A DNA stretch of 52,623 bases from a virus. Under the pieces are notes generated by a model. The model did no database searches and had not been told where the DNA came from. It saw nothing but the letters and a program-made list of their open reading frames with translations. The stretch covers positions 1-52,623 of IMG/VR virus record IMGVR_UViG_3300044730_000687; one strand, 5' to 3'. Below, one piece after another: positions 1 to 52,623 of this stretch. The position numbers were made by a program, and so were the translations under genes. The first letter of the stretch is position 1; each line of letters opens with the position of its first letter.

Positions 1-127
1 TGTAACCACCCGCCACAACCCCCGCGTGGGGGCTGGGACGGAGGGTTAGGGGCGGAAGATCGGGGCCATGGAAAACTTGCCGTGCGCGTAGACGTATTCC
101 CCGTCGCAATCCCGTCCGATCTTCTTG
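1..127. repeat. Terminal direct repeat, copy 1 (circle overlap)
   Basis: These 127 bases are identical to the last 127 bases of the window. This is what an assembler produces for a circular or circularly permuted phage genome, or for a genome with short direct terminal repeats. The repeat covers the 3' end of the first minus-strand gene and the GC-rich stem-loop downstream of it. Confidence 0.97.
18..34 (-). other. GC-rich stem-loop after the 75-residue gene
   Basis: CCCCC at 19-23 pairs with GGGGG at 28-32 around a four-base loop, a few bases downstream of the stop of the gene ending at 46. On the minus strand no U-tract follows, so it is not a classical intrinsic terminator. It could be a processing or packaging-related structure. 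It lies inside the terminal repeat and therefore recurs at 52514-52530. Confidence 0.5.
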
Positions 128-273
128 CGAGTCGTCGATCCGTGAACCAACAGGGTGGCGAACGACCCTTTTCGCTCGATCACCGTTGCGGTGAAGATGC
201 AGTCGTAATCGCAGGCAGAACGGGCCTTGAGCGTCTGGCCGGCTTCGATCGTCGTGCTCGTGTTCGTTTCCAT
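46..273 (-). CDS. Small conserved phage/plasmid protein ending in SMAPIFRP
   Basis: A 75-residue protein starting METNTSTT. The block CDYDCIFTATV and the ending YAHGKFSMAPIFRP match, from memory, a small family widespread on phages and mobile elements whose function is unknown. It is probably a compact beta-rich fold. The ATG at 273 lies only about 8 bases after a good -10 element (TATGGT at 281-286), so the mRNA may be leaderless; an in-frame ATG four codons upstream falls inside the -10 and is unlikely. It is the first gene after the terminator at 312-351 and is followed across the circle junction by the gene at 52257-52478. Confidence 0.85.
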   Translation of the reverse strand: METNTSTTIEAGQTLKARSACDYDCIFTATVIERKGSFATLLVHGSTTRKKIGRDCDGEYVYAHGKFSMAPIFRP

Positions 274-280
274 GGCCAAG

Positions 281-309
281 ACCATATACCTAAGCGGTTG
301 GGTATGCAA
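281..309 (-). promoter_or_regulatory. Putative promoter for the gene at 46-273
   Basis: Read on the minus strand: TTGCAT (304-309), a 17-bp spacer and TATGGT (281-286). It sits directly downstream of an intrinsic terminator, as expected for the start of a new transcription unit. The predicted +1 is at or next to the ATG at 273. Confidence 0.55.
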
Positions 310-311
310 CA

Positions 312-351
312 AAAAGAAAAGCGCGGAGGACTTTTCGAGTCGCATCCGCGC
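312..351 (-). terminator. Intrinsic terminator after the secreted-protein gene
   Basis: On the minus strand GCGCGGA (345-351) pairs with TCCGCGC (321-327), and the stem is followed by a T-rich run ending near 312. It lies 30 bases after the stop of the gene at 382-849 and closes the transcription unit that includes the putative small terminase. Confidence 0.75.
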
Positions 352-381: not shown

Positions 382-849
382 TTACGCGAGAATCTTTCGC
401 GCACTCCAAATCCCGAGCAACGCGCCTCCGATCATGGCCAACACGCTGCCGTTGTCGGCGATCACGCCCGGATTGTGCGTGACGGGGTTAACGTAAGTCC
501 ACTGCCAGACTCCGGGTGACAGCAATCGGTAATTGCTGCCCTCGAATTCCGGAAAGATCAGCCGAAACGGCCGTTGCGTGAACTCGTCGTGCAGCGTATG
601 TCGATACGTCTGCCAATCGACGGTGATATCCACCACGTTACCGCCGGTAGCGTGCGCCCAGATGTCAGCGGTATTCCTGAAGGGTGGATCATTGGCGGTC
701 TGGGTGACCCGATCCCAGCCTTGCTGACCAGTCTCGGTGATGTTGAACACCAGCTTCTGGCTGGTCTGCTCGGTGATGTCGATTCTGACGGCCTGCGCTT
801 GGAACGCAAATGCCATTACCGTCGTGATGATTGCTGGTGTCTTGTTCAT
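382..849 (-). CDS. Secreted protein with VPDSG/PEP-CTERM-like sorting tail
   Basis: A 155-residue protein with a Sec signal peptide (MNKTPAIITTVMAFAFQAQA, likely cut after AQA), a 105-residue soluble domain of no recognised family, and a tripartite C-terminus: ADNGS, a hydrophobic stretch LAMIGGALLGIW, and a basic end SARKILA. That architecture is the one known for VPDSG-CTERM and PEP-CTERM proteins, which are processed by exosortases, here presumably a host enzyme. A simpler reading is a single-pass C-terminal anchor. The start is supported by AGGACA ahead of the ATG, overlapping the stop region of the upstream gene. A terminator follows. A role at the host surface, for example blocking superinfection, is speculation. 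Confidence 0.85.
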   Translation of the reverse strand: MNKTPAIITTVMAFAFQAQAVRIDITEQTSQKLVFNITETGQQGWDRVTQTANDPPFRNTADIWAHATGGNVVDITVDWQTYRHTLHDEFTQRPFRLIFPEFEGSNYRLLSPGVWQWTYVNPVTHNPGVIADNGSVLAMIGGALLGIWSARKILA

Positions 850-4902: not shown

Positions 4903-5129
4903 GCGTTCTTCCTTTGATCCATGTACTGCACGCACTCCTGCCACAACAACTCCGTCTCCTTCACTCCGTTTACTCTGGTTTGATTCACGGCGCAATCCGA
5001 TGTTCGAATCATGCACACCGCGAACCCTGCGTAGAAGGCGTCTTGCAATCCTTCCCATTGCACAGGTTCGCACCCGTCCGGGTAGCTTGCCTGCATCATG
5101 CGAATGAACTCGTCGCGGAGCGTGGTCAT
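4899..5129 (-). CDS. 76-residue protein in the PP-loop operon
   Basis: The start MTTLRDEFIRMMQASYPDG overlaps the stop of the DUF3440 gene (ATGA at 5126-5129). The body contains DAFYAGF and VQYMDQRKNA and looks like a small helical phage protein of the type with a DAFYAG(F/A) motif. The function is unknown. Coupling on both sides ties its dosage to that of its neighbours. Confidence 0.78.
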   Translation of the reverse strand: MTTLRDEFIRMMQASYPDGCEPVQWEGLQDAFYAGFAVCMIRTSDCAVNQTRVNGVKETELLWQECVQYMDQRKNA

Positions 5130-6331
5130 GCTTCCTGCCTTCTGGTTTTCTTGATGTCCATGTACTTCGCGTAAGCCTCGCTCTTTGGTTGGGTCAGTCC
5201 AAGCCCCTTGCACCAATGGTCGTTCCGGAGAATCACTTTGCACAGCCTTCTCCATGAAGGTGCCCAGTGCTTATCCTCAAGCACCTTCGGGGCTTCGTCC
5301 GGGATGCCGTTCACGTACCCTCTCCCTTTCCATCCCGTGATGAACGATTTGAACCTGCCTACGTAGTGCTCTCTCGTTTTGTTGGGCAGTGTGTTGAGCA
5401 GTAGGTTGCAGAAGCTCTTCCACGTATGCCCGTCCGGTTTGCTGATCTTGTTGTACCCTGTGATGTTCCCGGTTTCCTGCACGTACAACGATCCGCTGTT
5501 GGCTCCGCTCACCCTGGTTACCAGCTTGAACCACGTCTTTGGCTCCAGAATGTGGTACAGCCAAAGCCCCCTCCTCTGGTCGTCACCGTACGGTTGGCAC
5601 AACCGCATCTGACTGATCGTAAGCCCTGCTTGGTGCATTCGGTCGTATATTTCGTTGTGCGGTTTTTCGGGATAGTGCGCGTGATACCTCCAAATGTCCT
5701 CCGTTTTCCAGTCGTACACTGGATACACGTTGTAGAGACCTTCCTCCACTTTGGTTGTAAACAGCTTGCCTCCGTGGCATTCCTTCTTCCTGCTCGTCAC
5801 GGTCCGAAATCGGTTAAGGCTCTCGTCTGCCCTGATTCCGACGAACCCACAGCAATCCTTGCCTTGTCCATACCAGACGCCAAAGAGGACCATAAACTCC
5901 TCGAACTCCATTCTTTCCTCGAAGAAGTCGAAGTGCTTGGGGTCCGTTATGACGCCTTTGCGCTTCGGCACTTCTCGCACCCACTCCACACCCGGCTCCC
6001 AGCAGCACCACCTCGGGTTGAATGCGCTCACGGCATTCCTGAGCAGCATCGGTAGGCATACCCAATGAAGTTCGATGTTCTTTTCGTACATGTCGAACAT
6101 CTCGTTGGCGTGCTCTATCGTTTGACTGTACTGCGCCTCCAGGTCTATCAGCAGCACTCCTACGGTTCGGCCGCGCTTGATCGCCTCATCCATCACAAGA
6201 TGGAACATGACGCTTGAGTCTTTGCCTCCCGAGAAGCTGATGTAGATTCGTTCGAAGTTGTCGAACGCATACGCCACCCGTTCGCGTGCTGCCGTAAGCA
6301 CGTCTTTTTCTGAGTATCGCTTGATGCTCAT
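5126..6331 (-). CDS. DUF3440 PP-loop enzyme, PAPS reductase-like (IbrA-like)
   Basis: A 401-residue protein. SFSGGKDSS (PP-loop SGGKDS at 34-39) binds and pyrophosphorylates with ATP. GIRADESLNRFRT, VYPVYDWKTEDIW and QMRLCQPYGDDQRRGLWLYH are signatures of the DUF3440 branch that includes E. coli IbrA. Members are called phosphoadenosine phosphosulfate reductases, but true PAPS reduction is doubtful, because PP-loop enzymes also thiolate tRNA (TtcA, ThiI) or DNA (DndC). It overlaps the 142-residue gene by one base (TGATG), with the ParB-like gene before that, the same gene pairing as ibrA/ibrB. Its length is typical of the family and the motifs look intact. Confidence 0.88.
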   Translation of the reverse strand: MSIKRYSEKDVLTAARERVAYAFDNFERIYISFSGGKDSSVMFHLVMDEAIKRGRTVGVLLIDLEAQYSQTIEHANEMFDMYEKNIELHWVCLPMLLRNAVSAFNPRWCCWEPGVEWVREVPKRKGVITDPKHFDFFEERMEFEEFMVLFGVWYGQGKDCCGFVGIRADESLNRFRTVTSRKKECHGGKLFTTKVEEGLYNVYPVYDWKTEDIWRYHAHYPEKPHNEIYDRMHQAGLTISQMRLCQPYGDDQRRGLWLYHILEPKTWFKLVTRVSGANSGSLYVQETGNITGYNKISKPDGHTWKSFCNLLLNTLPNKTREHYVGRFKSFITGWKGRGYVNGIPDEAPKVLEDKHWAPSWRRLCKVILRNDHWCKGLGLTQPKSEAYAKYMDIKKTRRQEA

Positions 6332-6759
6332 CAGTACAGGTTCGCTTCGGTTTTGGATTGCGCGGCATCCATGGTCAGCTCCGGTTCGCTTCGGCCTTTC
6401 AGCCACTTGTTGAGAGCCCACAGAGCGGTGTAGTCCGCAATGTTTTGCTCCTCTTTTGAGAGCAGATGGAACCCGCCCCTGTAACAGGAAGGCAGCCCTT
6501 TAGCGATGCACGCCGAAGCCTGCCCAAGCCATGCGATTCTGTTCATGTTCTCGTTGGACAGGTAGTGCTCGCATGAGTTCGGCCATTCCTTGAGCACGCG
6601 CATGAGAGCGTCTCTAAACTCCTCTCCGTTTTTCAGGAATGCAGCGTACTCGGCTTCGCACTTGTCCTTGTCTGCCGTTTTCCTTCCGTTCGGCTTGTCG
6701 TTGTAGAACCCGGCAGGGTAGCACTCCCACTTGTCGTACGTGTGGAATATTCGTTTCAT
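6331..6759 (-). CDS. 142-residue protein between ParB-like and DUF3440 genes
   Basis: A mainly helical protein with conserved-looking aromatic and Cys residues (YDKWECYPAGFY, CEHYLSNENMNRIAWLGQAS, GLPSCYRGGFHLL). The segment RIAWLGQASACIAKGLPSCY is, in my recollection, recurrent in phage proteins that accompany DUF3440 enzymes. It has one-base overlaps (TGATG) on both sides. It may be an accessory or substrate-recognition subunit of the cassette; no activity can be assigned. Confidence 0.82.
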   Translation of the reverse strand: MKRIFHTYDKWECYPAGFYNDKPNGRKTADKDKCEAEYAAFLKNGEEFRDALMRVLKEWPNSCEHYLSNENMNRIAWLGQASACIAKGLPSCYRGGFHLLSKEEQNIADYTALWALNKWLKGRSEPELTMDAAQSKTEANLY

Positions 6760-7484
6760 CAGTCCTCCAGTTTTGTTTCTGATTCTTCGTCAACGAAGTC
6801 CTCGACATCCCAGGATTTCGAGAAGTCTTGATCCTTGAACATTTCGGCGAGCCCGGTGATTTGGCAGAGCCGCAGCACTTCGTCGGGGTCCATCCCAAGC
6901 TCACGGCTGATCTTGTCGTCTGACCAGTTCCGACGCTTTAACTCGACCACGATGTCCGACATCGACTCGACGCGATGCTTTCCGCGTGCCCTGTTGTGAC
7001 GAATCGTCGCCGCGATACGGTCTCCCTTGTCCGTTCTCCCCTCGTTGATCTCAACCACTGGAAGGTAACCGTGAACCCTTTCGGCCACTTCTTTCGATTC
7101 CTTGCCAACCCGATTTCGGTGGAAGCCGTCCACCACCTCGTTTCGGCCTTCCGTTTTGAACGTGACGATGGGCTGTGTGTATCCGTCTTCCAGAATGGAC
7201 ACCTTGAGCAGTTCCATTTCGGGCGGAGCCACGCTGTTTGGGTTGTAGTCGTTGGCTTGAATCCTGTCGTTCCTGACCCACAACACACAGTCCACAGGCT
7301 CGCTTGCGAACGGCGATACCTTGTGCAAGGCCCGCTTGATTTCGTTTATCGCCTCGATTCGTTCCGCAATAGGTAGCTCGGCGAGCTTTTGCACTTCGTC
7401 CAATATTCCGCTGGATGATTGATTTCTTTTACATTTAGGTTGTGGCGCATCTTGCAGTCCTAACGGTAGCTCTGTTTCTTGCAT
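6759..7484 (-). CDS. ParB-like nuclease/NTPase-domain protein (IbrB-like)
   Basis: A 241-residue protein. An N-terminal low-complexity leader is followed by a ParB/Srx-type domain (about 64-165: NDYNPN, TQPIV, VVDGFHR at 117-123, RHNRARGKH), then a helix-turn-helix (about 176-212: MSDIVVELKRRNWSDDKISR, then LGMDPDEVLRLCQITG). ParB-like domains bind CTP or ATP, and some family members are free-serine kinases. The arrangement with a DUF3440 enzyme copies E. coli ibrB-ibrA, whose products regulate surface-protein genes. Here it opens a coupled five-gene run after AAAGGAACC. It could act as a DNA-targeting subunit for the PP-loop enzyme. Confidence 0.85.
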   Translation of the reverse strand: MQETELPLGLQDAPQPKCKRNQSSSGILDEVQKLAELPIAERIEAINEIKRALHKVSPFASEPVDCVLWVRNDRIQANDYNPNSVAPPEMELLKVSILEDGYTQPIVTFKTEGRNEVVDGFHRNRVGKESKEVAERVHGYLPVVEINEGRTDKGDRIAATIRHNRARGKHRVESMSDIVVELKRRNWSDDKISRELGMDPDEVLRLCQITGLAEMFKDQDFSKSWDVEDFVDEESETKLED

Positions 7485-14866: not shown

Positions 14867-15161
14867 GTTTCGTTTCCTCTCGCTTCATTGCCACGTAACG
14901 GGTCCACCATTCCAACGCGCTGTATTCCCTCACGACCTTGACGTGCCAACAGGCCAGTCGTCTGTCTGGCTTTGCTCCGCGCTCAAGCAATCCCGCGTAG
15001 TGAATCCCGAAGTCTTCGCACCCGCACTTTCCGTTTCCTCCGTACCACGTCATGTCCACCCGATGACGAATGCTTGGCCGGCTCCTGCTTTGCACCCAAT
15101 ACACGCCAAACTCGCCTTCGACAGGTTCGACGACCGGGAGCAATGTCGGTTTCCTTTTCAC
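14580..15161 (-). CDS. SWIM zinc-finger protein with long out-of-frame tail over the HNH gene
   Basis: A 193-residue protein. The SWIM motif CxC...CxH (C46, C48, C71, H73) lies in residues 46-73; such fingers bind DNA or proteins. The start at 15161 is a GTG overlapping the stop of the PP-loop gene (GTGA); ATG 15182 is an alternative. From about residue 100 the frame runs 287 bases across the HNH gene in another frame, and that part looks like non-selected sequence. Either the true gene lost its stop, or the two are read as overlapping genes. Confidence 0.7.
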   Translation of the reverse strand: MKRKPTLLPVVEPVEGEFGVYWVQSRSRPSIRHRVDMTWYGGNGKCGCEDFGIHYAGLLERGAKPDRRLACWHVKVVREYSALEWWTRYVAMKREETKRDRETKRAETQSPVDHCIPGTNGTGTAGPGGRIFQACQEVQADPSGVSTMQPTTDSGCPSYPRPKRDAVARLASLESGVPRVSRMDWKQPGKIAP

Positions 15162-16033
15162 TCGCAATATCCGCTCATGCACTTTGCCCCGTCGTCGTCT
15201 TCCTGAAACATGAAGTCAAATCCGGATTGAACGCCTCCGCGTAACGTCTTTGACCATCGTACCACGTCGTCGATTGTTCCGATTGTATATTCGACTCCTT
15301 TGCGATTCGTGTATCGTTTAGAATGCTGGGCATTTGGAATTGCTGTAGCCGGAAAAAAAGTAGCGATTCCCGCGTGTGGTCTGGCTAATCCTACTAGTCT
15401 CTCCCATTCTCTGTACTCGTCTATTACTTCCGGTCGCTTTTTTGCGGTCCTTCGCACGTCTTCTTTTCCGCTCATGCAGCACAGTCTGCACCCGACGCGC
15501 TTCCATCCCTGCTTATACAAAGGATTGATTGGTATTCCCCATTCTTTATGCGCGTCCCAAACGTCTCCGATTGACCAATCAAGCAACGGGCGCCTCACCT
15601 TAGACTTCATTGGTTCGCTGTAATCCCATTCGTCCAACATTGATCGTTGCACGGATTCATCGCGGCGAACGCCGCTGTGAGAAATCACTTCGTAGCCATC
15701 GAGCCACAGCTCTTGAATATAAGCGATGCTTGGACGGATCTTAAGCCAGTCGGTACAGAATCGAGCCATGGAAGAAGGAAAGCGTTGCTTCCAAATGGCC
15801 AACCGAAGAAAACCCATCGACTTCATCCACCGTACCGGAGCGACGCCCCTAGCCTGACCGTACGCATCCAAGGCACGAATCTGTTCGTATACCTCCGGAT
15901 ATTCGTTCTCCGTGTCAGCAAATGAACCTCGGATTGATTCAATCGAATAGCCCGACTCGTTGATTGCCCACCCCCACAAAGCCGTCGAGTCTTTGCCTCC
16001 GCTCAACCCAAAATGGTTTATGGTTTTTGACAT
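15158..16033 (-). CDS. PP-loop ATPase, phage PAPS reductase-like
   Basis: A 291-residue protein. PP-loop SGGKDST at 11-17; FCTDWLKIRP; HSGVRRDES; RRPLLDWSIGDVWDAHKEWG; INPLYKQGWKRVGCRLCC. The Cys-rich segment after RVGC and the C-terminal KCMSGYCE may hold a metal or Fe-S cluster. The family is called PAPS reductase/sulfotransferase in phages and includes DndC-like DNA thiolation relatives. This is the second PP-loop enzyme in the genome (the other is at 5126-6331) and belongs to a different branch. Its substrate is unknown. Confidence 0.88.
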   Translation of the reverse strand: MSKTINHFGLSGGKDSTALWGWAINESGYSIESIRGSFADTENEYPEVYEQIRALDAYGQARGVAPVRWMKSMGFLRLAIWKQRFPSSMARFCTDWLKIRPSIAYIQELWLDGYEVISHSGVRRDESVQRSMLDEWDYSEPMKSKVRRPLLDWSIGDVWDAHKEWGIPINPLYKQGWKRVGCRLCCMSGKEDVRRTAKKRPEVIDEYREWERLVGLARPHAGIATFFPATAIPNAQHSKRYTNRKGVEYTIGTIDDVVRWSKTLRGGVQSGFDFMFQEDDDGAKCMSGYCE

Positions 16034-32881: not shown

Positions 32882-33149
32882 GGTTTGCCTCCTTCACGTC
32901 CTTGGCGTCTTGAAGGTCGCCGTTCAACAGGCTCCGGAACGATCCGCATGCCGCACCAATTAGCGCCGCGATCAAAATTGCCAAATCGTAGGCGTATTGC
33001 ACGGGATGCTGAACCATGGCGTTGAACCGTTCCGCTCCCACTTGGGACAACCATGCCGTTACGACGGCTGACAAAGCAATCCCCTCATACGTGATCAGCG
33101 TCAGAACCGCCCACTGCCATCGATTGACGAAGTTTCCTAAGGCTTTCAT
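32871..33149 (-). CDS. Holin-like two-helix membrane protein
   Basis: A 92-residue protein. Two transmembrane helices (about 13-35 WAVLTLITYEGIALSAVVTA; about 53-72 YDLAILIAALIGAACGS) are separated by a short loop, with a charged C-terminus (GDLQDAKDVKEANRGT). This is the class II holin layout. It is coupled by ATGA to the membrane PAS protein upstream and lies before tail genes rather than beside an endolysin. Confidence 0.65.
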   Translation of the reverse strand: MKALGNFVNRWQWAVLTLITYEGIALSAVVTAWLSQVGAERFNAMVQHPVQYAYDLAILIAALIGAACGSFRSLLNGDLQDAKDVKEANRGT

Positions 33150-33763
33150 GTCGCGTATGGGGTCCCGTCGTTGTCTTCCTGCGCTTCTCCAAGCTTGTGC
33201 GGAGCCACCTTTTCGACGACCCCAAACATCCGCAGGATCTTCCCGTCTCTGTTTTTGCTGACGTAGGTGTGGGCCTTCGCGATGAATCGCTCGCCGGTCT
33301 TTCTGTTGTGAACTCTGTAGGTTTCAAGCCACGGCATGCTTCCATTCAATGCGGCTCGCCAGTTGTTTGCTACCCGACTTCGCTCCTTGGCCCCTTCCAT
33401 TCCCTCAAGCCATCCGTTTCCGAGCATGCTGTGCGCGTCGAGACCGAACATGTCCGCAAGTGTTCTCGAAACGTACACGCAGTTCCCAATCTGGTCGCAT
33501 TCAAACGTTGCATCTCCTCCGCAGAAGTCAGCCCTGACTCGCTGGCCATCGCGCAACACCACGAGATCATCCTCAATAGCTGTAACCCGATCGGGAAGCG
33601 TCATGCCGCCGCTGCCAATGATCGCACTGTGAATCGCCGTCAGTTTCCGAATGCTGCTCCAAACCCATACAGCGGCACCTCCGACAACAGGATAGACAGA
33701 CACCACAACGAACTGCTTTACAAGCTCGGAACCGAATGCGTGCTGTAGAAATTCGGCGATCAT
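33146..33763 (-). CDS. Membrane-anchored PAS-domain protein
   Basis: A 205-residue protein. One transmembrane segment (about 17-37 QFVVVSVYPVVGGAAVWVW) is followed by a short coiled linker (LPDRVTAIEDDLVVL) and a PAS domain (about 84-187: ATFECDQIGNCVYVSRTLAD, MLGNGWLEGM, ERFIAKAHTYVSKNRDGKIL, FGVVEK). PAS domains sense small ligands, redox state or light and normally drive kinases or cyclases; no output domain is attached. The ATGA overlap with the holin-like gene implies linked dosage. It may sense a host or membrane state and gate lysis; that is speculation. Confidence 0.85.
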   Translation of the reverse strand: MIAEFLQHAFGSELVKQFVVVSVYPVVGGAAVWVWSSIRKLTAIHSAIIGSGGMTLPDRVTAIEDDLVVLRDGQRVRADFCGGDATFECDQIGNCVYVSRTLADMFGLDAHSMLGNGWLEGMEGAKERSRVANNWRAALNGSMPWLETYRVHNRKTGERFIAKAHTYVSKNRDGKILRMFGVVEKVAPHKLGEAQEDNDGTPYAT

Positions 33764-33782: not shown

Positions 33783-34115
33783 TTACTCGCGAGTCAGGTT
33801 GCGAACTACAACGGTGAGAACGTTCTCCAACCGTGCAATTCGTTCGTCGCGCGTTCCTGTTCCAAAATCCCGAACGACCCTCCGTTGCTTTTCCAGTCGG
33901 GTATTGTCGTCGCGATTATCCTCCTCCTTTTTGAGTTGGGCCAATTCTTCAGGCAGCAACTCCCTTCCGCCAATCCAAAGCCACGTTGTGCCGTTGTATG
34001 AACAATTGGAAACAACCCACGTCGGACAATCAATATAGCCGTCCGGTGGAACATCTCCGCTGTAAATCTGTGTGGAGATGACTAGCGAGTCCTTGAGCAG
34101 CGCGGAGTTTTTCAT
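33783..34115 (-). CDS. Hypothetical protein with coiled-coil end, 110 residues
   Basis: The N-terminal half is beta-rich with cysteines (GYIDCPTWVVSNCSYNGTTW); the C-terminal half is a charged coiled coil (EELAQLKKEEDNRDDNTRLE). It is coupled by ATGA to the large glycosidase gene. It may be a fibre-associated or chaperone protein; the function is unknown. Confidence 0.7.
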   Translation of the reverse strand: MKNSALLKDSLVISTQIYSGDVPPDGYIDCPTWVVSNCSYNGTTWLWIGGRELLPEELAQLKKEEDNRDDNTRLEKQRRVVRDFGTGTRDERIARLENVLTVVVRNLTRE

Positions 34116-37100
34116 GGTGCGTTAAGTGTCCCGATGGTCGCCGTCCCGATGGTCGCGTTCGGCGGAGTCGACGCAACTCCGTTCGTGACTGCGAATGTGA
34201 TTCCAGAAAGCTCTCCGGTGTTCCCATACTTGTCTCGCGCCTGCACATCTAGCCGATAGACTCCGTTGACCAGATTCGTGAACTCCGCGACTGTACCCTC
34301 GGCCCAGTTTTCCCATGGAGCAGATGGGCCGAGCCGGAATCGGCTCAACACGTTGCTCCTGTAGAGCGGAGTGTTCATCACCGTGTCGTCTAACGCGGTC
34401 CATTTGATGAACGTGTCAGTCAGCCCTTCTCCGTTCAGTGCGGACAGCGGGTACGAGTCCATAGTGATGACTGGCGGATTTGTGTCAGCCCGCGACGCGA
34501 CAACCGCATTGGTCAGCAGAGCAAACATAGCGGCAGGACTGATGGTGCGGCTGACGAGGTACGTGGCCACGCGCCCAATCGGGATGGCTGCGCTGTTGCT
34601 TGTCAGCAGATTCCCGAATACGTCAAGCTGGCCGAAGTTCGTGCTGCCCAGCGTCAAGCTTCGGTTCGTTTTGTCTTGGGTCCAGATGATTGCGGTAGTG
34701 AGATTGCTTTTGCCGAAAACGTAGCAGTCGGTTTTCGGTATGTTGGTCACCGAGGCAGTGTACGAAGGCGGGTCTATCAGCCTCTTGAATTGGAGCATCG
34801 CAGCAAGCTGTGGCCGCGCTTCATCGTAGAAATCCCACACAGGGGAGCTGGTGTCGATTGCTCCGCCGCGAATGTAGGAGCTGTATCGGGCGTCGTAGTA
34901 GTACACCCCCGCAAACCCATGACCCAAGCTGCGAGCCAGCACCGCCAAGGCACGCATCGTCGTGTTGTAACCAGCCCTGTCCATAACCTCGTGCCGAAGC
35001 ATTTCGTACGTCCACGCAGCTCCGGTCTGAATTCCGACATTGTATGTCCGGCAAGGACCGTTGTCGTAGACGCCGGATTCCGAGTTGTACACAGGTTTCC
35101 CGTAGTTGATCCCAAGTTGCTGCCACTGCTGATACCTGGGTCGATCCGTAACGTCGTCATTCATCAACATGACGACGTTGCCGCCTGCCGGGTAGAGATG
35201 GCACGACAGCCCGTGGACGTTGGAGAGTGTGTTCGACGGAAGGATGCCGAGAAACCCGTGAGCGACGTTCGTGTCAGCCATGCCGCCGCATGTCACGTAC
35301 AGCGCCCCGGGATAGGCTGCGTGTAGCGCATTCTCTTCTGTTATGGCGATGTCGCGCAGATTCGCTGCGGTCAGGGTCGAGTGTGGCTCATTCCGCATCT
35401 CATAAAATGCGATTCGGTCAGTGTACCGGCCGGCCACTCGATTAATGTAATCCCAAAGAAGGTTTGTGTGGACCATCGCGCCGCTGGAGACGGCGAATGC
35501 AGGTATCTCAGCATTCGTCCACAAAGTCATCCAGATGTCCTGTTCGTCGTGAGCGCCAACTCGCCAGTCGGTTGACTCGAACGTGAAATTGTTGTCTGTC
35601 GCCTCGATGCTCGTCCATCGCGCATACCCGCCAGGGGACAGAGTTCGGGTCCCGCGAAATCCAAGGACCTTGTTTGTCGCCACCGCGTCTTCGGCAGTCT
35701 GGCTGTGAATGTGGACAATCCCGTTGGTTGCGTCGCTCGACCAGACCTTCGCGAACATAGTCTCGTCCTGTTCTGGATGAGACGTTGACCTGCTCACGAC
35801 TCGGTAGTGGCCGAATTGAATCCACGGAGGAAAAGTGATTGTGTTGGTGGCCTTTCCGGGTGGCACTGACCCATTGAACTCGCCGCTGAAAATGGGCACT
35901 CCGAACTGATGGTTCGTCTGCCCGTAGGCGATGTAAGACCAGTTGAAATTTGAGGAACTCGAACCGTAGTTGTACGTGACGAGATCCATCGACACGGTCT
36001 CGTTGTCGAACCACAGATTGCCATTTCTCGGTGTGGTGAGAACAAACTCTACCCCGTGCTTTGGAGCCCACGGTGTGGCGGTTGCCCCCTCCTCAAGTTG
36101 GACGTCGTCGATGTAAAATGAGGTAAGCGTGACCGATTCGATCGTGAGCTGCCACTCAGCCGTGGGGCGGTCGCTTGCCCAAAAATTCGTCTGGAACCGC
36201 ACCCAGTTCGTGGTCCCCGGTGCGGTCCAATTCCATGAGTACCCCACGTTCGTTGTGCTGGCCGGAACGTAGCGATTCGTCCAAGCCAATGACGTCATCC
36301 TCGCAGTCACCGTTGACGCCAAGGCTTTGGCGTAAAAGCTCAACGTGTACTGACGAGTTCCAGGTCGCAGCTTGATAGGGCTGTTGTAGATCGCGAACCG
36401 AGCTTTACTGTCATTGATCCATGCAATCGTTGATCCAGTCACCGCGTTGTTGGTCGTTGCTACATTCGACTTCAAGAACGTAGGCTTGAAGAGATTGCTG
36501 TCGGTCTGCGAGTTTCTCGCATACATCCAGCGTGGCTGCCAACCCAGCTCAAACGAAGCGTTGCCAAGTTTGTTTCCATGGATGGCGTTGGTCTGAACTG
36601 GAGGCACCGAGTAATCGTAGAATGCGTCCATGTAGGCCGCCGTGCCGATCGGGTCAGTCGTTGCCGGTGCGGCGACGTTGGTGTTTGACGATAGCGCGAA
36701 CGCCTCAAGATAGAAGTCGTGGGCTTGGCTGGGTGCAGCGAGCCACGTAAACCGTACCTGGGCGTTGGTGAACTCCGTGGTCGCGACGTAATTGGTTCCG
36801 ACGTAGCCGGTGGCCTGGCTGAAATCTATGTTCGCCCAAGCGTTTGTTCCCAAGCGAAACTCCGCCACCCCCAGTGTGTTCGGTGGCTGAAAGTTTCGTG
36901 TCCAGGCTTTTAGGAAGGCCCTGTACGTCCCCGGCCCGCCCGACGGCCCGTCGATCGTTGCGGTTACATTCGTGGTCGCAGATGTGGTCCGGAAATACCA
37001 CGAGCCATACGTGAGGTTGACGTCCGACTTGGACCAGTTTGTGTTCTGCTGAGATAGGTCAAAGTCATCCTTCGTCCAGATCCGCAAGCCTGGAATCTGG

Positions 37101-37147
37101 GCCAGACATGAGACCGATGCGAACAGGATTGCAAGAAATAGCTTCAT
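34112..37147 (-). CDS. Exported clan GH-A glycosidase-like fibre protein
   Basis: A 1011-residue protein. Signal peptide MKLFLAILFASVSCLAQ; an N-terminal beta domain; a CBM4/9-like jelly roll (about 195-355, ending FYIDDVQLEEGATATPW); a TIM-barrel region (about 475-800) with the acid/base motif FYEMRNEP (E587) and a candidate nucleophile PVYNSES (E690), the paired glutamates of clan GH-A (GH5/GH39-like). The C-terminus has an Ig-like segment (PPVITMDSYPLSALNGEG). It probably cleaves a host surface or biofilm polysaccharide. A Sec signal is odd for a virion part, so it may be a soluble depolymerase. It is ATGA-coupled to the beta-helix fibre gene upstream. Confidence 0.8.
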   Translation of the reverse strand: MKLFLAILFASVSCLAQIPGLRIWTKDDFDLSQQNTNWSKSDVNLTYGSWYFRTTSATTNVTATIDGPSGGPGTYRAFLKAWTRNFQPPNTLGVAEFRLGTNAWANIDFSQATGYVGTNYVATTEFTNAQVRFTWLAAPSQAHDFYLEAFALSSNTNVAAPATTDPIGTAAYMDAFYDYSVPPVQTNAIHGNKLGNASFELGWQPRWMYARNSQTDSNLFKPTFLKSNVATTNNAVTGSTIAWINDSKARFAIYNSPIKLRPGTRQYTLSFYAKALASTVTARMTSLAWTNRYVPASTTNVGYSWNWTAPGTTNWVRFQTNFWASDRPTAEWQLTIESVTLTSFYIDDVQLEEGATATPWAPKHGVEFVLTTPRNGNLWFDNETVSMDLVTYNYGSSSSNFNWSYIAYGQTNHQFGVPIFSGEFNGSVPPGKATNTITFPPWIQFGHYRVVSRSTSHPEQDETMFAKVWSSDATNGIVHIHSQTAEDAVATNKVLGFRGTRTLSPGGYARWTSIEATDNNFTFESTDWRVGAHDEQDIWMTLWTNAEIPAFAVSSGAMVHTNLLWDYINRVAGRYTDRIAFYEMRNEPHSTLTAANLRDIAITEENALHAAYPGALYVTCGGMADTNVAHGFLGILPSNTLSNVHGLSCHLYPAGGNVVMLMNDDVTDRPRYQQWQQLGINYGKPVYNSESGVYDNGPCRTYNVGIQTGAAWTYEMLRHEVMDRAGYNTTMRALAVLARSLGHGFAGVYYYDARYSSYIRGGAIDTSSPVWDFYDEARPQLAAMLQFKRLIDPPSYTASVTNIPKTDCYVFGKSNLTTAIIWTQDKTNRSLTLGSTNFGQLDVFGNLLTSNSAAIPIGRVATYLVSRTISPAAMFALLTNAVVASRADTNPPVITMDSYPLSALNGEGLTDTFIKWTALDDTVMNTPLYRSNVLSRFRLGPSAPWENWAEGTVAEFTNLVNGVYRLDVQARDKYGNTGELSGITFAVTNGVASTPPNATIGTATIGTLNAP

Positions 37148-40100
37148 TTGTACTGGACAGCAATCTCGTTGAGAGTCGTATCCAGCGATGTCGAACCCGA
37201 AATGACCGCATTCCGCACCGACGCGCCAGCCGCCAAGCCCCAGGGAATATTCGATGAGTTCGTTACAACCGCCACATCATTGTGGTAGCCGATCATATTT
37301 GTGCCGTTAACATGGACACCAAGCTTGTACCACGTGCTTGGTGTGTACGTGATTCCGGTGTCCACCCACGTAACGCCCACGCTGTTCGAGACGCAGCCAA
37401 ACGCCCACGTCACCGCACCGCTGGCGATGTTCGTTTGGTGAATCCAGCCTGCAAACGTCGCTGGACGATTTGTGTCGCCCGTAGCCAGAGAATTGAATCC
37501 AACCTGGAGTGAGTAAATATTGGTCAGTACATTGCCAGATGTTTTGTCCGGCGTACGAATATCAGCGCCGAAGAACAACTGGTTAGTGCTGTTCTGCGTT
37601 GGGATTGCAAACGCACGATTGTCATACCAGCCAAAACACGGCGCTTGATTCGTGTTCTGCGCCCGCATGATGCGAATGCCTTGCCGGCCCGCACCGTTAG
37701 TCGCGCTGGTGTATTGGAACGATCCGCCATTGTTGGCACCGCTCGATCCCATATCACCGGATGTGACCGCCGTATTCAGGTTGAACAAATCATCAACGAA
37801 TAACTGTGATCCACCGATGATGCCTGTCACGAACATCTGAGGCGCGACACTTTCGAGTCGTTCATACACAGCACGCTCAGTCGCGACGTTAGTGCTGCTT
37901 TCCCAGCTTGGCCCGTACGGGTTGTACGAAACGATAAAGTTCGTAACCACGAGGCTGCTCATGATCACGTCTGCAAACGTGGCAGTGCCCGTGAAGGTCG
38001 GCGATGCGATGGTCGAGTACGTTGCGGCGGCGTCGTTGGAGCGAAGGATTGAGGATGGGATTCGGAGAGCGTCAATCGTTCCGGTGAGCAACGTTGCATC
38101 AACCGCCGTTATGTTGGCCGCGCTTGTTCCGTTCGTTCGAACGAAGCTGATGGAGGCCGAGTTGACTAGGTTGGAAACTGCGTTCGTCGCGCTCCCGATT
38201 GTGATGTAACCGGAACCTCCGCCTCCGCTTCCGCTCGCCGTAATCATGATCTTCTTATTCGAAGCGTCGTAGGCGAGACTAATGTTGTTTGACGAAACGA
38301 TTGAGTTCGTGAGCGCAGCCCACTGAACATCAGCAAAGTCGCTGATCGTCGAAGCAGTCTGCGTTCCCGTGTGATTTGCCCTGGAAATCAATGCTTGATA
38401 GGCTGCCGTCGTTAGCTTGTTCGTCCCCAAGCTGCTTGCAACAACCGAGTAGGTATAGTTCGATCCGCTTGTATTCCCCTCGATTTCCGATCCGTCGAGA
38501 AGGTTTAGCGTCGTCTTTTGAACTCCTTCGACCCACAGGGCCGTTCCGTTCGTTGGGCCGCCTCCTCCGCCTCCCGTAATCCCCATCGCGTTGTAAAGGT
38601 TTGCCAGCGTCATGCCGATACCTTCGCGAACTCCGGTTGATGGGTCGGCGGCGAATCCGTAGACGTGCGTCAGTGTGCCGGTGGAAGCCAGCACAGACAG
38701 AGGGCGCTCGAAGTAAATCCCGTTGTTCGTCCCGAAGTGCGCGAGGTTGTTTGCTCCCTTCTGGATCGTCAGCATCGCGTCCGCGTTTGCCTTCAAGACG
38801 AAAGCCTGCGTTGATCCGATTGCCCCTCCGGTAATCAGTCCGTTGAAGTTTGAGAGGACGTTTCCGAGCTTCACGGCTCCAGTTAACTCAGAGAAGCCAG
38901 CCACGTTCAGCCCGTTCGTGATGCTCAGCGAACCGTAAAGCGTGCCGCCGTAGTCCGGCAGGTACGGGTACACGTATCGCGTCCAGGCTGAATTGCGGTA
39001 GGTGAACGTGTCCTCTGTGCCAGCGCGAATCACTGTGTTGATGCCAGTGAACGTGACGGTGTTGGTGCCGGTGTTTCGGATCGTCAGCGTCGTGCCTGGG
39101 TACGTAAACCCGCCAACGCTGAACGTCATGTTGCTGGATCCTGTGATCTCCACCCGACTCGGCAGCAGGTCGCCGGGAATTGAAAGGTTTGTCGTCGCGC
39201 CCGAGACCGTGAAGTTGGTGGTGATAACCGAAAGCGCCGGCTGACTCTGCGTCCAAAGCTTAATCGGGACATTCGCGGGAAGCTCGTAGTCGCTGGCAAT
39301 GTCGGTCGGCGCGGAGTGGATCTCCCAATCGCGGACCAAGGAATTGGTCAGGCTCAAAGCCTTACCACTGTCCGATGTGATGGCGTTGTCCCGCCACCGG
39401 AACCCATAGAGCGTGGTGCCATTCGTGTCACGCAAAGCCCATGTCCCGCCCGTAAAGTCCTGGTAGAAGTAATTGCGGGTGACCGACAGAGCGCTGTGCT
39501 GGCCCGGTCCAAGGGCGATCGGGTTCTGAGTGAATACCTCAAAGTAATTGTGGTCGATGCTGTTGTTGATTTGACCTGAACCAACAACGCCTTCCGGATA
39601 AATTCCGTAGCGCAGACTCTGAAAAACATTCGCTGTGAAGTCGTGGTTTGCCACGCCCCCTTTCCAACGAATACCGATCGCATTGGTAAATCCTGGCGAC
39701 TCAAACTTGTTCCGAAAGATTGAATTTGCTGTCGCTGAAACACCATTAAGATCCAGCCCGATGTCAGAGTTGTTTATGAATGTGTTGAAGGTGATCAGAT
39801 GTCCGTAGTTCTGATTGCCAGTCAGCAACACGCCAACGCCGTTCGCCCTGTAGAAGTCATTTCCAACGATCTTGAACTCCGTCGAATTGTTGATGGTCAG
39901 GATGTTTGTCGCGGTGTTGTTCGCGTCGAACCAAAGATTTTCGATGGTGACGTGCCGCATCGTGTGAAGCGTGAACATCGTCGATGCTGACGTGCCGCGA
40001 ATGATGGACCGAAGCCCCGGCTGGCCTCGCAACGCCAATCCACCAACGAGCCCGGTTCCCGTGAAGCTTACGCTCGAAACCAGAATCGTCCCAACCGGGA

Positions 40101-40503
40101 ACTCAAGCGTCGGGACGTTGTTGGAGTAACAGTAGTTGATCGCGGCTTGCACTCCTGCCGTTCCGTCTGTCGATCCGTCGCTCGCAACTCCAAACCATTC
40201 GGCGCGTTGAGGAATAGCAAGCCTGTCAGCCGAGACCCACTTACCTGAAACTGATCTGTTCGTTAGGTAGTGAACACCGTCGTGCGACTGTGTTGCGGAT
40301 GGATCGTTCCGAAATGTTCGCGGTTGGCTGAATGGGACGGTTGCGCTGTAATTCCTGACTTGAATCTCCTCGCCAACAACGGGGCGTCTGGAGGTCAAGT
40401 CGGCAATCGTCGCGACGCTGTTAACTGGATTCATCTGCTGGCCAAAAGCCGCGATTGAAACGCACGCGCACAGCAGGCTAAGGAGTAGTGTCTGGATTCT
40501 CAT
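37144..40503 (-). CDS. Exported beta-helix tail fibre / depolymerase-like protein
   Basis: A 1119-residue protein. Signal peptide MRIQTLLLSLLCACVSIAAF; a pectate-lyase-3-type right-handed beta-helix (about 95-420: FGVASDGSTDGTAGVQAAIN, then repeated short strands); a fibre stalk with the NHTGTQTASTISDF motif typical of tail fibres; and a LamG-like lectin end (TPSTWYKLGVHVNGTNMIGY). The stalk motif argues for a virion fibre, the signal peptide against simple cytoplasmic assembly. Polysaccharide binding or cleavage is likely. It is coupled to its neighbours by ATGA on both sides. Confidence 0.85.
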   Translation of the reverse strand: MRIQTLLLSLLCACVSIAAFGQQMNPVNSVATIADLTSRRPVVGEEIQVRNYSATVPFSQPRTFRNDPSATQSHDGVHYLTNRSVSGKWVSADRLAIPQRAEWFGVASDGSTDGTAGVQAAINYCYSNNVPTLEFPVGTILVSSVSFTGTGLVGGLALRGQPGLRSIIRGTSASTMFTLHTMRHVTIENLWFDANNTATNILTINNSTEFKIVGNDFYRANGVGVLLTGNQNYGHLITFNTFINNSDIGLDLNGVSATANSIFRNKFESPGFTNAIGIRWKGGVANHDFTANVFQSLRYGIYPEGVVGSGQINNSIDHNYFEVFTQNPIALGPGQHSALSVTRNYFYQDFTGGTWALRDTNGTTLYGFRWRDNAITSDSGKALSLTNSLVRDWEIHSAPTDIASDYELPANVPIKLWTQSQPALSVITTNFTVSGATTNLSIPGDLLPSRVEITGSSNMTFSVGGFTYPGTTLTIRNTGTNTVTFTGINTVIRAGTEDTFTYRNSAWTRYVYPYLPDYGGTLYGSLSITNGLNVAGFSELTGAVKLGNVLSNFNGLITGGAIGSTQAFVLKANADAMLTIQKGANNLAHFGTNNGIYFERPLSVLASTGTLTHVYGFAADPSTGVREGIGMTLANLYNAMGITGGGGGGPTNGTALWVEGVQKTTLNLLDGSEIEGNTSGSNYTYSVVASSLGTNKLTTAAYQALISRANHTGTQTASTISDFADVQWAALTNSIVSSNNISLAYDASNKKIMITASGSGGGGSGYITIGSATNAVSNLVNSASISFVRTNGTSAANITAVDATLLTGTIDALRIPSSILRSNDAAATYSTIASPTFTGTATFADVIMSSLVVTNFIVSYNPYGPSWESSTNVATERAVYERLESVAPQMFVTGIIGGSQLFVDDLFNLNTAVTSGDMGSSGANNGGSFQYTSATNGAGRQGIRIMRAQNTNQAPCFGWYDNRAFAIPTQNSTNQLFFGADIRTPDKTSGNVLTNIYSLQVGFNSLATGDTNRPATFAGWIHQTNIASGAVTWAFGCVSNSVGVTWVDTGITYTPSTWYKLGVHVNGTNMIGYHNDVAVVTNSSNIPWGLAAGASVRNAVISGSTSLDTTLNEIAVQYK

Positions 40504-43485: not shown

Positions 43486-44421
43486 TTATGCCACCGTCAC
43501 GTTGACTCGCGCACCAGCAGCCGAGTTCACGGCCTTGATGTCGAAGGACCAATCGAACCCGAACACCTCGCCTCGCCCGTCCTGGGTCGTATAAGCTCGG
43601 GGTCCAAGCCACTGGCCAGTCTGGCGGAAAGTCTTCAGCCACGACGGGTCGGTCCGGGTCGGGATGCTCGACGCCACGAAAATCAGGACGCCGGTATCCA
43701 GCAGGTAGCTGTAGCTCGGGGTGACACCTTCGCCGGCCGTGTCGGCGACCACGTTGCTCACCATGATCTTCGGGTTCCCGATGAACAGGCTCGACGCCAT
43801 CTCCTCGCTCACGTTCGGGATCGCCTTGTTGCCAGCCGCAACGAATCGGGAGCGAACCACGGGAGCGTTCTTGAACCGCTTCCAGGCGGTCGCACCGAAA
43901 AGCAGGCGCGTCTCCATGTTGCCACCGTACGGGACGTTCTGCCGAATCGTGAGAATCCCGGTGTCGATACTGTCCACGATGTCGGTCGTGGCGCTGTTGA
44001 CGTTCACATCGGTCCCGGCACCAGCCGTGGCGAGCGCCAAGTCAATGGCACCCTTCTCGTGACTAAGCATCGCGATTTCGGCCGCGAGGTCAGCCGCTTC
44101 CATCGCGGCATTTAGTCCCACGAGACGCCCTTCCTGAATCTCCGAAGCGTCCAGCGGAACGTCCACACCGTTGATCGTGCAACTGTAGGTGCCGTCGTCG
44201 GCACCAAACCCAACCTGAACGGCCGGGTTGCCCGGGGACCGGCGCGTGTCCGGCAGCCGGAACCGGCTCTTGGCGTTGTAGACCTTGTACCGCCCGACCT
44301 TCGACGCGACCGAAACAGTAGGGGCGAGGAAGTCAGCGACGCGACCAATGCGAAGCTGCGATGCGTTCTGCGCGTATTCGATCAGGACCGGATTTGCGCT
44401 GAGATCAGAAAGTAGGCTCAT
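43486..44421 (-). CDS. Major capsid protein
   Basis: A 311-residue protein. The HK97-type layout is visible: N-arm (LIEYAQNASQLRIGRVADFL), E-loop region (GRYKVYNAKSRFRLPDTRRS), long spine helix (LNAAMEAADLAAEIAMLSHE) and A-domain (ATAWKRFKNAPVVRSRF). The length suits a major capsid protein, and the gene is flanked by protease/scaffold and decoration genes. It resembles capsid proteins of phages with Mu-type portals. Confidence 0.88.
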   Translation of the reverse strand: MSLLSDLSANPVLIEYAQNASQLRIGRVADFLAPTVSVASKVGRYKVYNAKSRFRLPDTRRSPGNPAVQVGFGADDGTYSCTINGVDVPLDASEIQEGRLVGLNAAMEAADLAAEIAMLSHEKGAIDLALATAGAGTDVNVNSATTDIVDSIDTGILTIRQNVPYGGNMETRLLFGATAWKRFKNAPVVRSRFVAAGNKAIPNVSEEMASSLFIGNPKIMVSNVVADTAGEGVTPSYSYLLDTGVLIFVASSIPTRTDPSWLKTFRQTGQWLGPRAYTTQDGRGEVFGFDWSFDIKAVNSAAGARVNVTVA

Positions 44422-44925: not shown

Positions 44926-46107
44926 TCAGGCGAGCGTCACGTTGTGCTCGGATTCGATCTGGCGCATCGCCTGAATCGTGGCCTCGGCTCGCGTGCATTT
45001 CCGATTCTTCAGGATGTCGTTCACTCGCCCAGAGACCATGAGCGCATACTTCTCGGATTCGTCCGCGTTGCCCTTGTCGATACTGCCCGGGTTCTTACCG
45101 CCGTTGGCATCGCGATTGAACACCGGCTTGCGGTTCGCCCGGTCCAGCGCGCTCTTGTCCGGAGCCTTGCCTTCCGCCGGCTTCTTCAGCCCCTTCAGGA
45201 TGGCAATGGTCCCGTCCCGGTTTGCCAGCAACGCTGTCTTGATTGCGTCGGCATTCTCGATCACGCCGGCATAATTCTTCAGGTCGTTGTCCACCACTTC
45301 CTCGGTCAGTTTCGTGACCCGGTTCTTGGTCGTGTCCAGCTCGCTGGCCGTTGCGGTCAGCCTGTTCTGAACGCCGGTCAGGGTGGCCAACACACCCGGG
45401 ATGTCCCGGTGCGCCGTCGTGAAGGTCCCGACGCTGGCCTCCATGGCCGCGTCGTCGGCGGTCTCGGGAAGACCGAGAAGCCGCGCCAAGAGTGCTTTGT
45501 GATTCATCGTCGTTTTGCCTTGTTCGTTGTTGCGATTCGGAACCGTTATCGGATTCAACCCCTTGTCATTCGGATCATTCGTCAGAGCCACCCGTTCCAC
45601 CTTGCTCGGCCGAAACTTGTCTCGCTCAAGATGCGCGAACCCACACAGCACGGCCGAAGCAAACCGAAAGTCCCCGTTTGTCACGGCTTCCATCCCTTCA
45701 CCCGTCCACTTGCCCCTCGCCCACACACCATCGGGCCGCGCTTCCATCTCGAAAATCCAACATCCTGCCTTGCTCGATTTGCTCGCGTCGTGGCTGAAAT
45801 GGTCGAAGTCCACCAGCATGCCTGGGAACTCCTTACCTTCGGCCGCGTAAGCGTCGCGCTCGGCATTGAACGTCGCGACAATCGAAGCAATGGCCGCGTC
45901 GTCGATTACCTGAACGATTCGCTCGCCGATCATCGGGCCATCGCTGAACCGGCCGGGATGCTCGCCCTTGCTGCTAATCTGCCACCATCCGTCATTCGCG
46001 ATTCGGAATGGAGCCTTACCTTCTCCGTCCTCCTGGCTTCGGTTTGCCACAAGGCACGGAAGGCCCATTGCCCTTACTGACTTTTCGATGAATGGCGTGG
46101 ACTTCAC
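44926..46107 (-). CDS. Mu I-like head maturation protease/scaffold
   Basis: A 393-residue protein. The N-terminal domain (about 70-190) has MLVDFDHFSHDASKSSKAGC and FRFASAVLCGFAHLERDKFR, the His and Ser region of the Mu gpI protease family; VALTNDPNDKGLNP marks its end. The C-terminal half (about 200-390, RLLGLPETADDAAMEASVGT, then coiled coil) is a scaffold. In Mu a separate scaffold is made from an internal start; ATG with MNHKALLARL near residue 200 could be the equivalent here. It starts at a GTG coupled to the portal stop (GTGA). Confidence 0.82.
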   Translation of the reverse strand: MKSTPFIEKSVRAMGLPCLVANRSQEDGEGKAPFRIANDGWWQISSKGEHPGRFSDGPMIGERIVQVIDDAAIASIVATFNAERDAYAAEGKEFPGMLVDFDHFSHDASKSSKAGCWIFEMEARPDGVWARGKWTGEGMEAVTNGDFRFASAVLCGFAHLERDKFRPSKVERVALTNDPNDKGLNPITVPNRNNEQGKTTMNHKALLARLLGLPETADDAAMEASVGTFTTAHRDIPGVLATLTGVQNRLTATASELDTTKNRVTKLTEEVVDNDLKNYAGVIENADAIKTALLANRDGTIAILKGLKKPAEGKAPDKSALDRANRKPVFNRDANGGKNPGSIDKGNADESEKYALMVSGRVNDILKNRKCTRAEATIQAMRQIESEHNVTLA

Positions 46108-47639
46108 TTTTTCGATTCGACTTGTAGACCTTCCGTGAAACCGTCAACAAGTAATTTTTCAATTATATCGGCTGACTTAGGCTCAACATTCGCGCTTTGT
46201 AGCATGTCGGGAAGCTTTTCGATGAAGCTTTGCAGCGACACCCTGCGTTCGTCCTCGTTTTCAATCCCAAGAACATCCGTGAGGTAACGCATCGCTTCGC
46301 CGCAATCGCCCAAGGCCAATCGCGCCACTTCCTCAAGATCCTGTTCCAATGGATCGTTGGCATCCCGCTTCCGGTTCCGCGCCGTTCCTTCGGCCGGTTC
46401 CTCGCCTTCCTCCGGTTCCACTGCGTTGGATTGTTGGCTTGGTCCTTTGTCGTGCTCCAAGTCCAGGCCCACCAGCTTTTCAGCTTCTTCCTCGTTCACG
46501 CGCCAACCTGCCGACTTCAACGCTCCGAGAATATCCGCGCCTTCCTTCTGGTCCTGCTTCTCGTTGCGCTTGATCGCAAGCCGCACGTAATGCGGCATGC
46601 CTGGAAAGGCTTCGTCCAACCGTGGCTTGGCAATCGCATTGTGAAGGATGTCGGCAATCTGTCCGCCTTCATCCGCCGCGATGTCCTCGAAGGCGTCCTC
46701 GTGCGCTCCCGTTGCTCCGCTGCCAATCCCGGTCGCCTCCGAAAGCATCGTCAACTTCCCGCCCGTCCCGGCCAAAACCAGCATCTTGTCGATGTAATCG
46801 GTGAATCCTGGGAACGGAGTGCTGTCGCTCGATCCTCCACCGAACATCTGGGCCTCGACGCCAACCGGCAGAACACCGCGCCCATTTGACACGTACCGCT
46901 CCAACGTGGCTCGCCATGCCGCCATTTCGTTTGGCGATGGCATGTTGTTTCGGTCCGTCGCCTTCAGGAAGATATTGGGAACGCCAAACGTCCCGACGTA
47001 CGTGGACCAATCGCGCATGGCCAGCGATTTCCTGATCCAATCGAACACGGCCAATTCGTCCAGCGACGACGTTACCTCCCGGCAAACAAAGTGTTCGCCT
47101 TCAACCTCAATCCCGCGATTCGTGTTCATCGCGTCCGGGTTGAACTGCCACTTGAGCGAAGGGAAGTTCTGGCACCAAAACCACTGAGGCACCGGCTCCA
47201 AATGCTTCACGTTGCCGCTCGCGTCATAGTGCTTCTCAAGGTGCGCGTATCCCCTGAATGAAGCTGTGCCTAACCATTTCCATGCGTCGCGCAAGTTGTC
47301 GATTCCGCTGAAGATGCCGTGAATGAATTCCTGTTGCGCTACCGCCTCGGTTTGAACCGATTCATCTTTCGTTGCTTGTTCTGTCAACTCGACTCTCCAC
47401 ACACAACTGCCAAGCGCCGATTGTCTTCGCTCCACCAACGCTTTCATTACGTGTTCCCGTTTCTCGACGTGCGCGTAAAGCCAAGTTAGGTCCGCGTAAT
47501 ATCCTCGTTGTGCAAGCTCAAGAAGATTGACGACTCGCGCCATCGTCAGGTTGCGAAGCGGATTCAGATGGGCGCGGATTGGAGCAATCTGCGGGTCGTA
47601 CAGTTCCGATCCTTCGTCTTGCTTGGTCAAGTTCATCAT
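46104..47639 (-). CDS. Portal protein (DUF935, Mu gp29-like)
   Basis: A 511-residue protein. DLTWLYAHVEKREHVMKALV, RRQSALGSCVWRVELT, FRGYAHLEKHYDASGNVKHL, GVLPVGVEAQMFGGGSSDST and the C-terminal EVARLALGDCGEAMRYLTDV follow the DUF935 portal family. The portal forms the ring through which DNA is packaged. The start at 47639 has GGAG eight bases upstream. It opens the head operon after a terminator and a weak promoter candidate. Confidence 0.9.
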   Translation of the reverse strand: MMNLTKQDEGSELYDPQIAPIRAHLNPLRNLTMARVVNLLELAQRGYYADLTWLYAHVEKREHVMKALVERRQSALGSCVWRVELTEQATKDESVQTEAVAQQEFIHGIFSGIDNLRDAWKWLGTASFRGYAHLEKHYDASGNVKHLEPVPQWFWCQNFPSLKWQFNPDAMNTNRGIEVEGEHFVCREVTSSLDELAVFDWIRKSLAMRDWSTYVGTFGVPNIFLKATDRNNMPSPNEMAAWRATLERYVSNGRGVLPVGVEAQMFGGGSSDSTPFPGFTDYIDKMLVLAGTGGKLTMLSEATGIGSGATGAHEDAFEDIAADEGGQIADILHNAIAKPRLDEAFPGMPHYVRLAIKRNEKQDQKEGADILGALKSAGWRVNEEEAEKLVGLDLEHDKGPSQQSNAVEPEEGEEPAEGTARNRKRDANDPLEQDLEEVARLALGDCGEAMRYLTDVLGIENEDERRVSLQSFIEKLPDMLQSANVEPKSADIIEKLLVDGFTEGLQVESKK

Positions 47640-52496: not shown

Positions 52497-52623
52497 TGTA
52501 ACCACCCGCCACAACCCCCGCGTGGGGGCTGGGACGGAGGGTTAGGGGCGGAAGATCGGGGCCATGGAAAACTTGCCGTGCGCGTAGACGTATTCCCCGT
52601 CGCAATCCCGTCCGATCTTCTTG
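52497..52623. repeat. Terminal direct repeat, copy 2
   Basis: Identical to bases 1-127. It contains the stem-loop seen at 18-34 (here 52514-52530). The circle closes at 52496/1. Confidence 0.97.
52542..52623 (-). CDS. Partial duplicate of the 75-residue gene (3' end)
   Basis: The C-terminal part of the gene at 46-273, present a second time only because the window runs past the circle closure. It is not a separate gene. Confidence 0.95.
   Translation of the reverse strand, partial: KKIGRDCDGEYVYAHGKFSMAPIFRP

Follow-up and report, generated by a model that had tools for sequence, protein, structure and literature searches.

On the minus strand of the window, by which we mean the whole stretch of 52,623 nucleotides analysed here, positions 382–849 hold an open reading frame with an ATG start that encodes a predicted secreted protein of 155 amino acids; its coordinates in the list of open reading frames are exactly those first given in the sequence-only reading. 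A gap of 8 nt separates it from the upstream gene, and an AGGA ribosome site lies 6 nt 5′ of the ATG. Directly 3′ of the gene, just past the stop codon, RNA folding places a terminator-like hairpin (about 352–310, minus strand; −18.4 kcal/mol, z −2.95) followed by the T-run TTTTCTTTTT, a structure that a consensus terminator scan did not list. Since GC3 (0.74) and the codon-usage score (+0.19) resemble those of the other genes of the window, while three alternative reading frames overlapping the locus score −0.09 to −0.12, and since ribosome site and hairpin with T-run frame the sequence, 382–849 is a real gene. The listed start of the neighbouring open reading frame 46–345 (minus strand) falls within the hairpin, and translation of that frame more likely begins at an internal ATG at 273 (METNTSTT...).

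Direct repeats of 127 bp at both ends (1–127 and 52497–52623) identify the window as a complete phage genome of about 52.5 kb, so that, once the map is closed into a circle, 382–849 comes to stand a few kb from the packaging genes. It ends the transcription unit before that of the large terminase (47795–49198), which lies a few kb downstream. Genes for terminase, portal, protease and capsid were identified, and all recognisable genes of the window are on the minus strand. Relatives of the Mu-type portal (46104–47639, minus strand) were found at E ≤ 1e-40 in 33 of 388 Verrucomicrobiota genomes, as compared to none of 398 from Pseudomonadota. The major capsid protein (43486–44421, minus strand) has a sole match among 50,697 phage records, in an Akkermansia phage which also has the portal, the protease and one further protein of the window phage. 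The phage thus probably infects Verrucomicrobiota, a phylum-level assignment from sequence similarity that does not name the actual host. The terminase was discarded as a host indicator because its relatives are too widespread. No integrase was detected among the window proteins scanned.

Several other genes of the window deserve mention. In the virion module, two very large proteins (34112–37147 and 37144–40503, both minus strand) have starts resembling Sec signals (MKLFLAILFASVSCLAQ and MRIQTLLLSLLCACVSIAAFGQQ, respectively), and within the tail module a PAS domain (PF08447, E 1.7e-8) follows an N-terminal hydrophobic segment (33146–33763, minus strand). At 5126–6421 and 6759–7484 (minus strand) a PAPS-reductase/DUF3440 protein adjoins a ParB-like gene, recognised as ParB by eye only, a pair that is like IbrA/IbrB. 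Apart from this pair, the phage encodes a second protein of the PAPS-reductase type (listed positions of the group: 5126–6421, 6759–7484 and 15158–16033, minus strand).

Reading of the translation bore out the layout described for the 155-residue protein in the sequence-only reading, namely a signal peptide, a domain of about 105 residues, ADNGS, a hydrophobic helix and basic terminal residues. The order is MNKTPAIITTVMAFAFQAQA, VRIDITEQ...NPVTHNPGV, IADNGS, VLAMIGGALLGIWSA and RKILA. By inspection, MNKTPAIITTVMAFAFQAQA (790–849, minus strand) has the features of a textbook Sec signal peptide, with a lysine at position 3, a hydrophobic core, and AQA before the predicted cut, after which the mature protein would start with V. 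The mature domain (463–789, minus strand; residues roughly 21–130, about 105–110 residues) has no convincing relative. Homologues were found neither in viral contigs nor in phage records, nor in the 11 genomes with exosortase XrtC described below; among 388 Verrucomicrobiota genomes none was convincing, the best matches being spurious frames or unrelated proteins. A single-sequence structure model (pLDDT 41) shows eight strands and is too poor for a fold search; judging from this low-confidence model, the domain is probably rich in β-strands. No related gene turned up in any other phage or prophage searched.

The C-terminal tail (385–462, minus strand) comprises the motif IADNGS, the helix VLAMIGGALLGIWSA and the basic end RKILA, and had been taken for the sorting signal of an exosortase substrate of the VPDSG- or PEP-CTERM type. 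The family models did not confirm this. Among Pfam models, PF18205 (VPDSG-CTERM) ranks first for the 26-residue tail taken by itself, with 13.2 bits over positions 4–25 of 26, against a cut-off of 25; it is no longer listed once the query is extended by six residues of context, and gives nothing for the whole protein. The NCBIfam models, including TIGR03778, are silent. What stood is the VPDSG-like register, the length of the helix and the basic end. We built a VPDSG matrix from 40 host tails of the eleven XrtC genomes, spanning 23 residues from P-D to R. The window tail scores +16.2, below every host tail (28–56 with near-duplicates left out) and above 1006 of 1007 comparable C-termini, i.e. 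those with a hydrophobic segment and a basic end among 37011 open reading frame C-termini from 3.3 Mb of other DNA. D, G at +2, S, G at +9 and R at +19 stand in matching register, the helix directly follows the motif, the first basic residue is found at +19 as in the host tails, and the best host tail is identical at 10 of 23 positions. Shuffling residues only within the head, helix and end blocks reached the window score in 0.05% of cases (p = 0.0005), indicating that residue order matters. The likeness to VPDSG tails is therefore specific, if imperfect. The V-P-D-[ST/x]-G signature itself is absent, however, and is represented by I-A-D-N-G: alanine replaces the proline present in 40 of 40 sampled host tails, and valine at +4 replaces the threonine present in 36 of 40, a conservation inflated by the picking of these tails with the model. 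With these two departures and no score over a family cut-off, the tail is VPDSG-like and no formal member of VPDSG-CTERM. PEP-CTERM (PF07589) was rejected, as ADN takes the place of Pro-Glu-Pro and the score on a PEP matrix is −4.3; PEP-CTERM tails, in turn, average +3.1 on the VPDSG matrix.

The same observations bear on two other accounts of the tail. Small phage membrane proteins are common, and signal peptide and C-terminal helix suffice for a protein that spans the inner membrane once, exposes its domain to the periplasm, is never processed and needs no enzyme; its likeness to VPDSG tails would be coincidental, and it could still serve in superinfection exclusion or lysis. This plain anchor is a live rival mainly owing to the missing proline and to the lack of relatives that could show selection on the motif, and the family models staying below cut-off is in keeping with it. 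The block shuffle argues against coincidence, and so does the background set, in which the single C-terminus scoring as high as the window tail is itself a true, canonical VPDSG tail from an XrtC gene locus; we regard the plain anchor as unlikely, though to be taken seriously. Alternatively, the gene might derive from a VPDSG-CTERM host protein and still be expressed, its tail having drifted from VPDSG to IADNG with loss of recognition. A score intermediate between background and real tails, and the loss of a proline conserved in the host sample, would fit such decay, which is at odds with the intact frame, codon usage, ribosome site and terminator and with the failure to find a host homologue of the domain. 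We consider decay improbable.

The proposal that the phage hijacks host sorting presupposes an exosortase in likely hosts. XrtC scored above 170 bits in 11 of the 388 sampled Verrucomicrobiota genomes, calls of which only one passes the strict 300-bit cut-off of the model and which are separated by a wide gap from the next group at 86 bits. All 11 genomes contain PF18205 matches over cut-off, so that the pairing of XrtC with VPDSG tails in this phylum is clear. The likely host phylum thus has XrtC together with its substrates, but in just these 11 of 388 genomes. XrtC occurs in 3 of the 15 genomes with the portals closest to that of the window (p 0.006, on small numbers). In one XrtC genome (G377), a small host open reading frame with a signal-like start (L241:2705–2920, plus strand), well away from the portal and among host-like genes, ends in VSEGGYTLFFLGLGLVALAVYNLRKRK, with a matrix score of 14.6; this VPDSG-like tail without Pro-Asp hints that the motif may tolerate change. 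In prophage regions near related portals in Verrucomicrobiota, no protein with signal peptide and tail was clearly within a prophage; one locus (L228) has a PEP-CTERM gene at its far end, in an unsettled position relative to the prophage. The window phage has no exosortase gene of its own, as expected of a hijacker, yet this lends no added support.

At E ≤ 0.001 the XrtC model matched 260 of the 388 genomes, nearly all weakly, suggesting that these genomes carry mostly other exosortase types. Conceivably, then, the tail serves an undescribed class of host exosortase that recognises motifs of the A-D-x-G-S type; the abundance of other types, and the fact that the window tail misses precisely the residues that define VPDSG, would suit this idea. 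No set of host proteins with ADNGS-type tails came to light to match it among the host sequences examined for other purposes, and we hold this account to be very improbable.

Tails of this kind were also sought in other phages. A degenerate pattern for VPDxGxTxxLLG, with a recall of 23 of 40 on the host tails, gave 13 stretches in the viral collection, and reading in frame left three lineages with real tails at the ends of open reading frames, all of which exceed the PF18205 cut-off. The viral status of these contigs is the IMG/VR call; terminase and portal were confirmed for the first lineage only. Two of the lineages, unrelated to the window phage, combine a signal peptide with a canonical VPDSG tail. 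The first (G390/G391/L361) comprises three nearly identical contigs, in which a 253-residue protein of this type is encoded between the terminase and a P22-type portal (L360:1138–1899, minus strand; the same in L361 and L364, other samples); a search of 241 Verrucomicrobiota genomes for relatives of its terminase gave none, and the host of this lineage may therefore belong to another group. The second, the 46-kb record G392, encodes a 244-residue protein with signal peptide and tail (L376:15941–16675, corresponding to IMGVR_UViG_3300009678_000075 35941–36675, minus strand) next to a 48%-identical paralogue with neither (L376:15442–16017, corresponding to 35442–36017 of that record, minus strand); from their sequences, the pair gives the impression of a single phage protein existing in two forms, one anchored at the surface and one soluble. 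The structure model of the G392 protein (pLDDT 33) is too poor for a fold search. A 668-residue protein of the same phage (L376:4034–6040) likewise has a Sec-signal-like start.

Tails without a signal peptide occur as well. G392 also has an open reading frame of 33 residues, MVATSFQRCVPDSGATLILLGMGLCGLAVIRRS (L368:1965–2066, minus strand; PF18205 40.5 bits), which is almost only VPDSG tail and is possibly a decoy substrate. In the third lineage, the record G389 (41.8 kb, with a terminal repeat of 91 bp), a reading frame of 119 (or 100) residues ends in VPDGGATIMLLGVVLVALAIWNHQKADHQ (L357:3920–4279, minus strand) and is over the PF18205 cut-off. Such free tails (33 residues in G392, about 100–119 in G389) could compete for the exosortase. 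The domains of all three lineages are unrelated to that of the window protein, and only the tails align. The likeness of the window tail, together with the canonical tag in a few unrelated phages, indicates that some phages may borrow host sorting. The notion of phage use of VPDSG sorting, put forward for the window protein, was thereby strengthened by two other lineages with canonical proteins and weakened by the IADNG motif of the window protein itself. That the VPDSG/XrtC route is used time and again by phages whose hosts carry exosortases, with displayed proteins (G390, G392, window) as well as free tails, is a tentative generalisation, in which our confidence falls somewhat short of even.

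For the product of 382–849, we give about even weight to a diverged exosortase-type accessory protein ('moron') of the cell surface or periplasm, exported by Sec, cut by XrtC and altering adsorption. The protein would be produced in an infected cell of Verrucomicrobiota type and exported via its signal peptide, and the C-terminal helix and basic end would anchor it in the inner membrane, leaving IADNGS at the periplasmic face, where VPDSG-type motifs would meet the exosortase XrtC. The host enzyme might then recognise IADNGS despite the missing proline and cut there, and the domain might be passed to the cell surface or to exopolysaccharide; by analogy with the PEP-CTERM model, the protein is predicted to be cleaved at this motif and then either released or transferred to the envelope. 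Once displayed, the domain would most likely alter adsorption, e.g. by blocking rival phages, so that superinfection exclusion is a conceivable function of the protein. If this reading is correct, phages exploit a surface-sorting system of Gram-negative bacteria, which would provide a handle on the action of exosortases on their substrates and on the remodelling of host surfaces by Verrucomicrobiota phages. A small phage substrate would moreover be a convenient reporter of XrtC activity.

No report of VPDSG phage proteins was found in the literature searched, which included few subscription papers, and the portion of the exosortase, PEP-CTERM and phage literature covered describes no phage substrates of exosortases except for a count of TIGR03118 proteins. 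That family, with a putative exosortase interaction domain, accounts for 13 of the cell-derived virus genes in hot-spring virus contigs, reported as a family count only (PMC11003980). These proteins are likewise located on virus contigs, but belong to another family and not to VPDSG. The signal-peptide proteins of the G390 and G392 lineages share with the window protein their phage origin, signal peptide and VPDSG-type tail, and differ from it in the canonical motif over cut-off, in unrelated domains and in the unrelated phages that encode them. From the VPDSG-CTERM system (PF18205/TIGR03778) with its exosortase XrtC (TIGR04151) the window protein departs in having IADNG without proline and V for T at +4, in a tail below both model cut-offs, and in being phage-encoded. 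In the PEP-CTERM/EpsH model, the signal peptide acts first and the helix then anchors the protein, so that the motif is periplasmic and lies beside the exosortase active site (PMC1569441). The window tail lacks the Pro-Glu-Pro of that system and scores −4.3 on its matrix, whereas the protein agrees with it in the three-part layout; a lack of homology beyond the tail is likewise shared with most PEP-CTERM proteins (PMC1569441).
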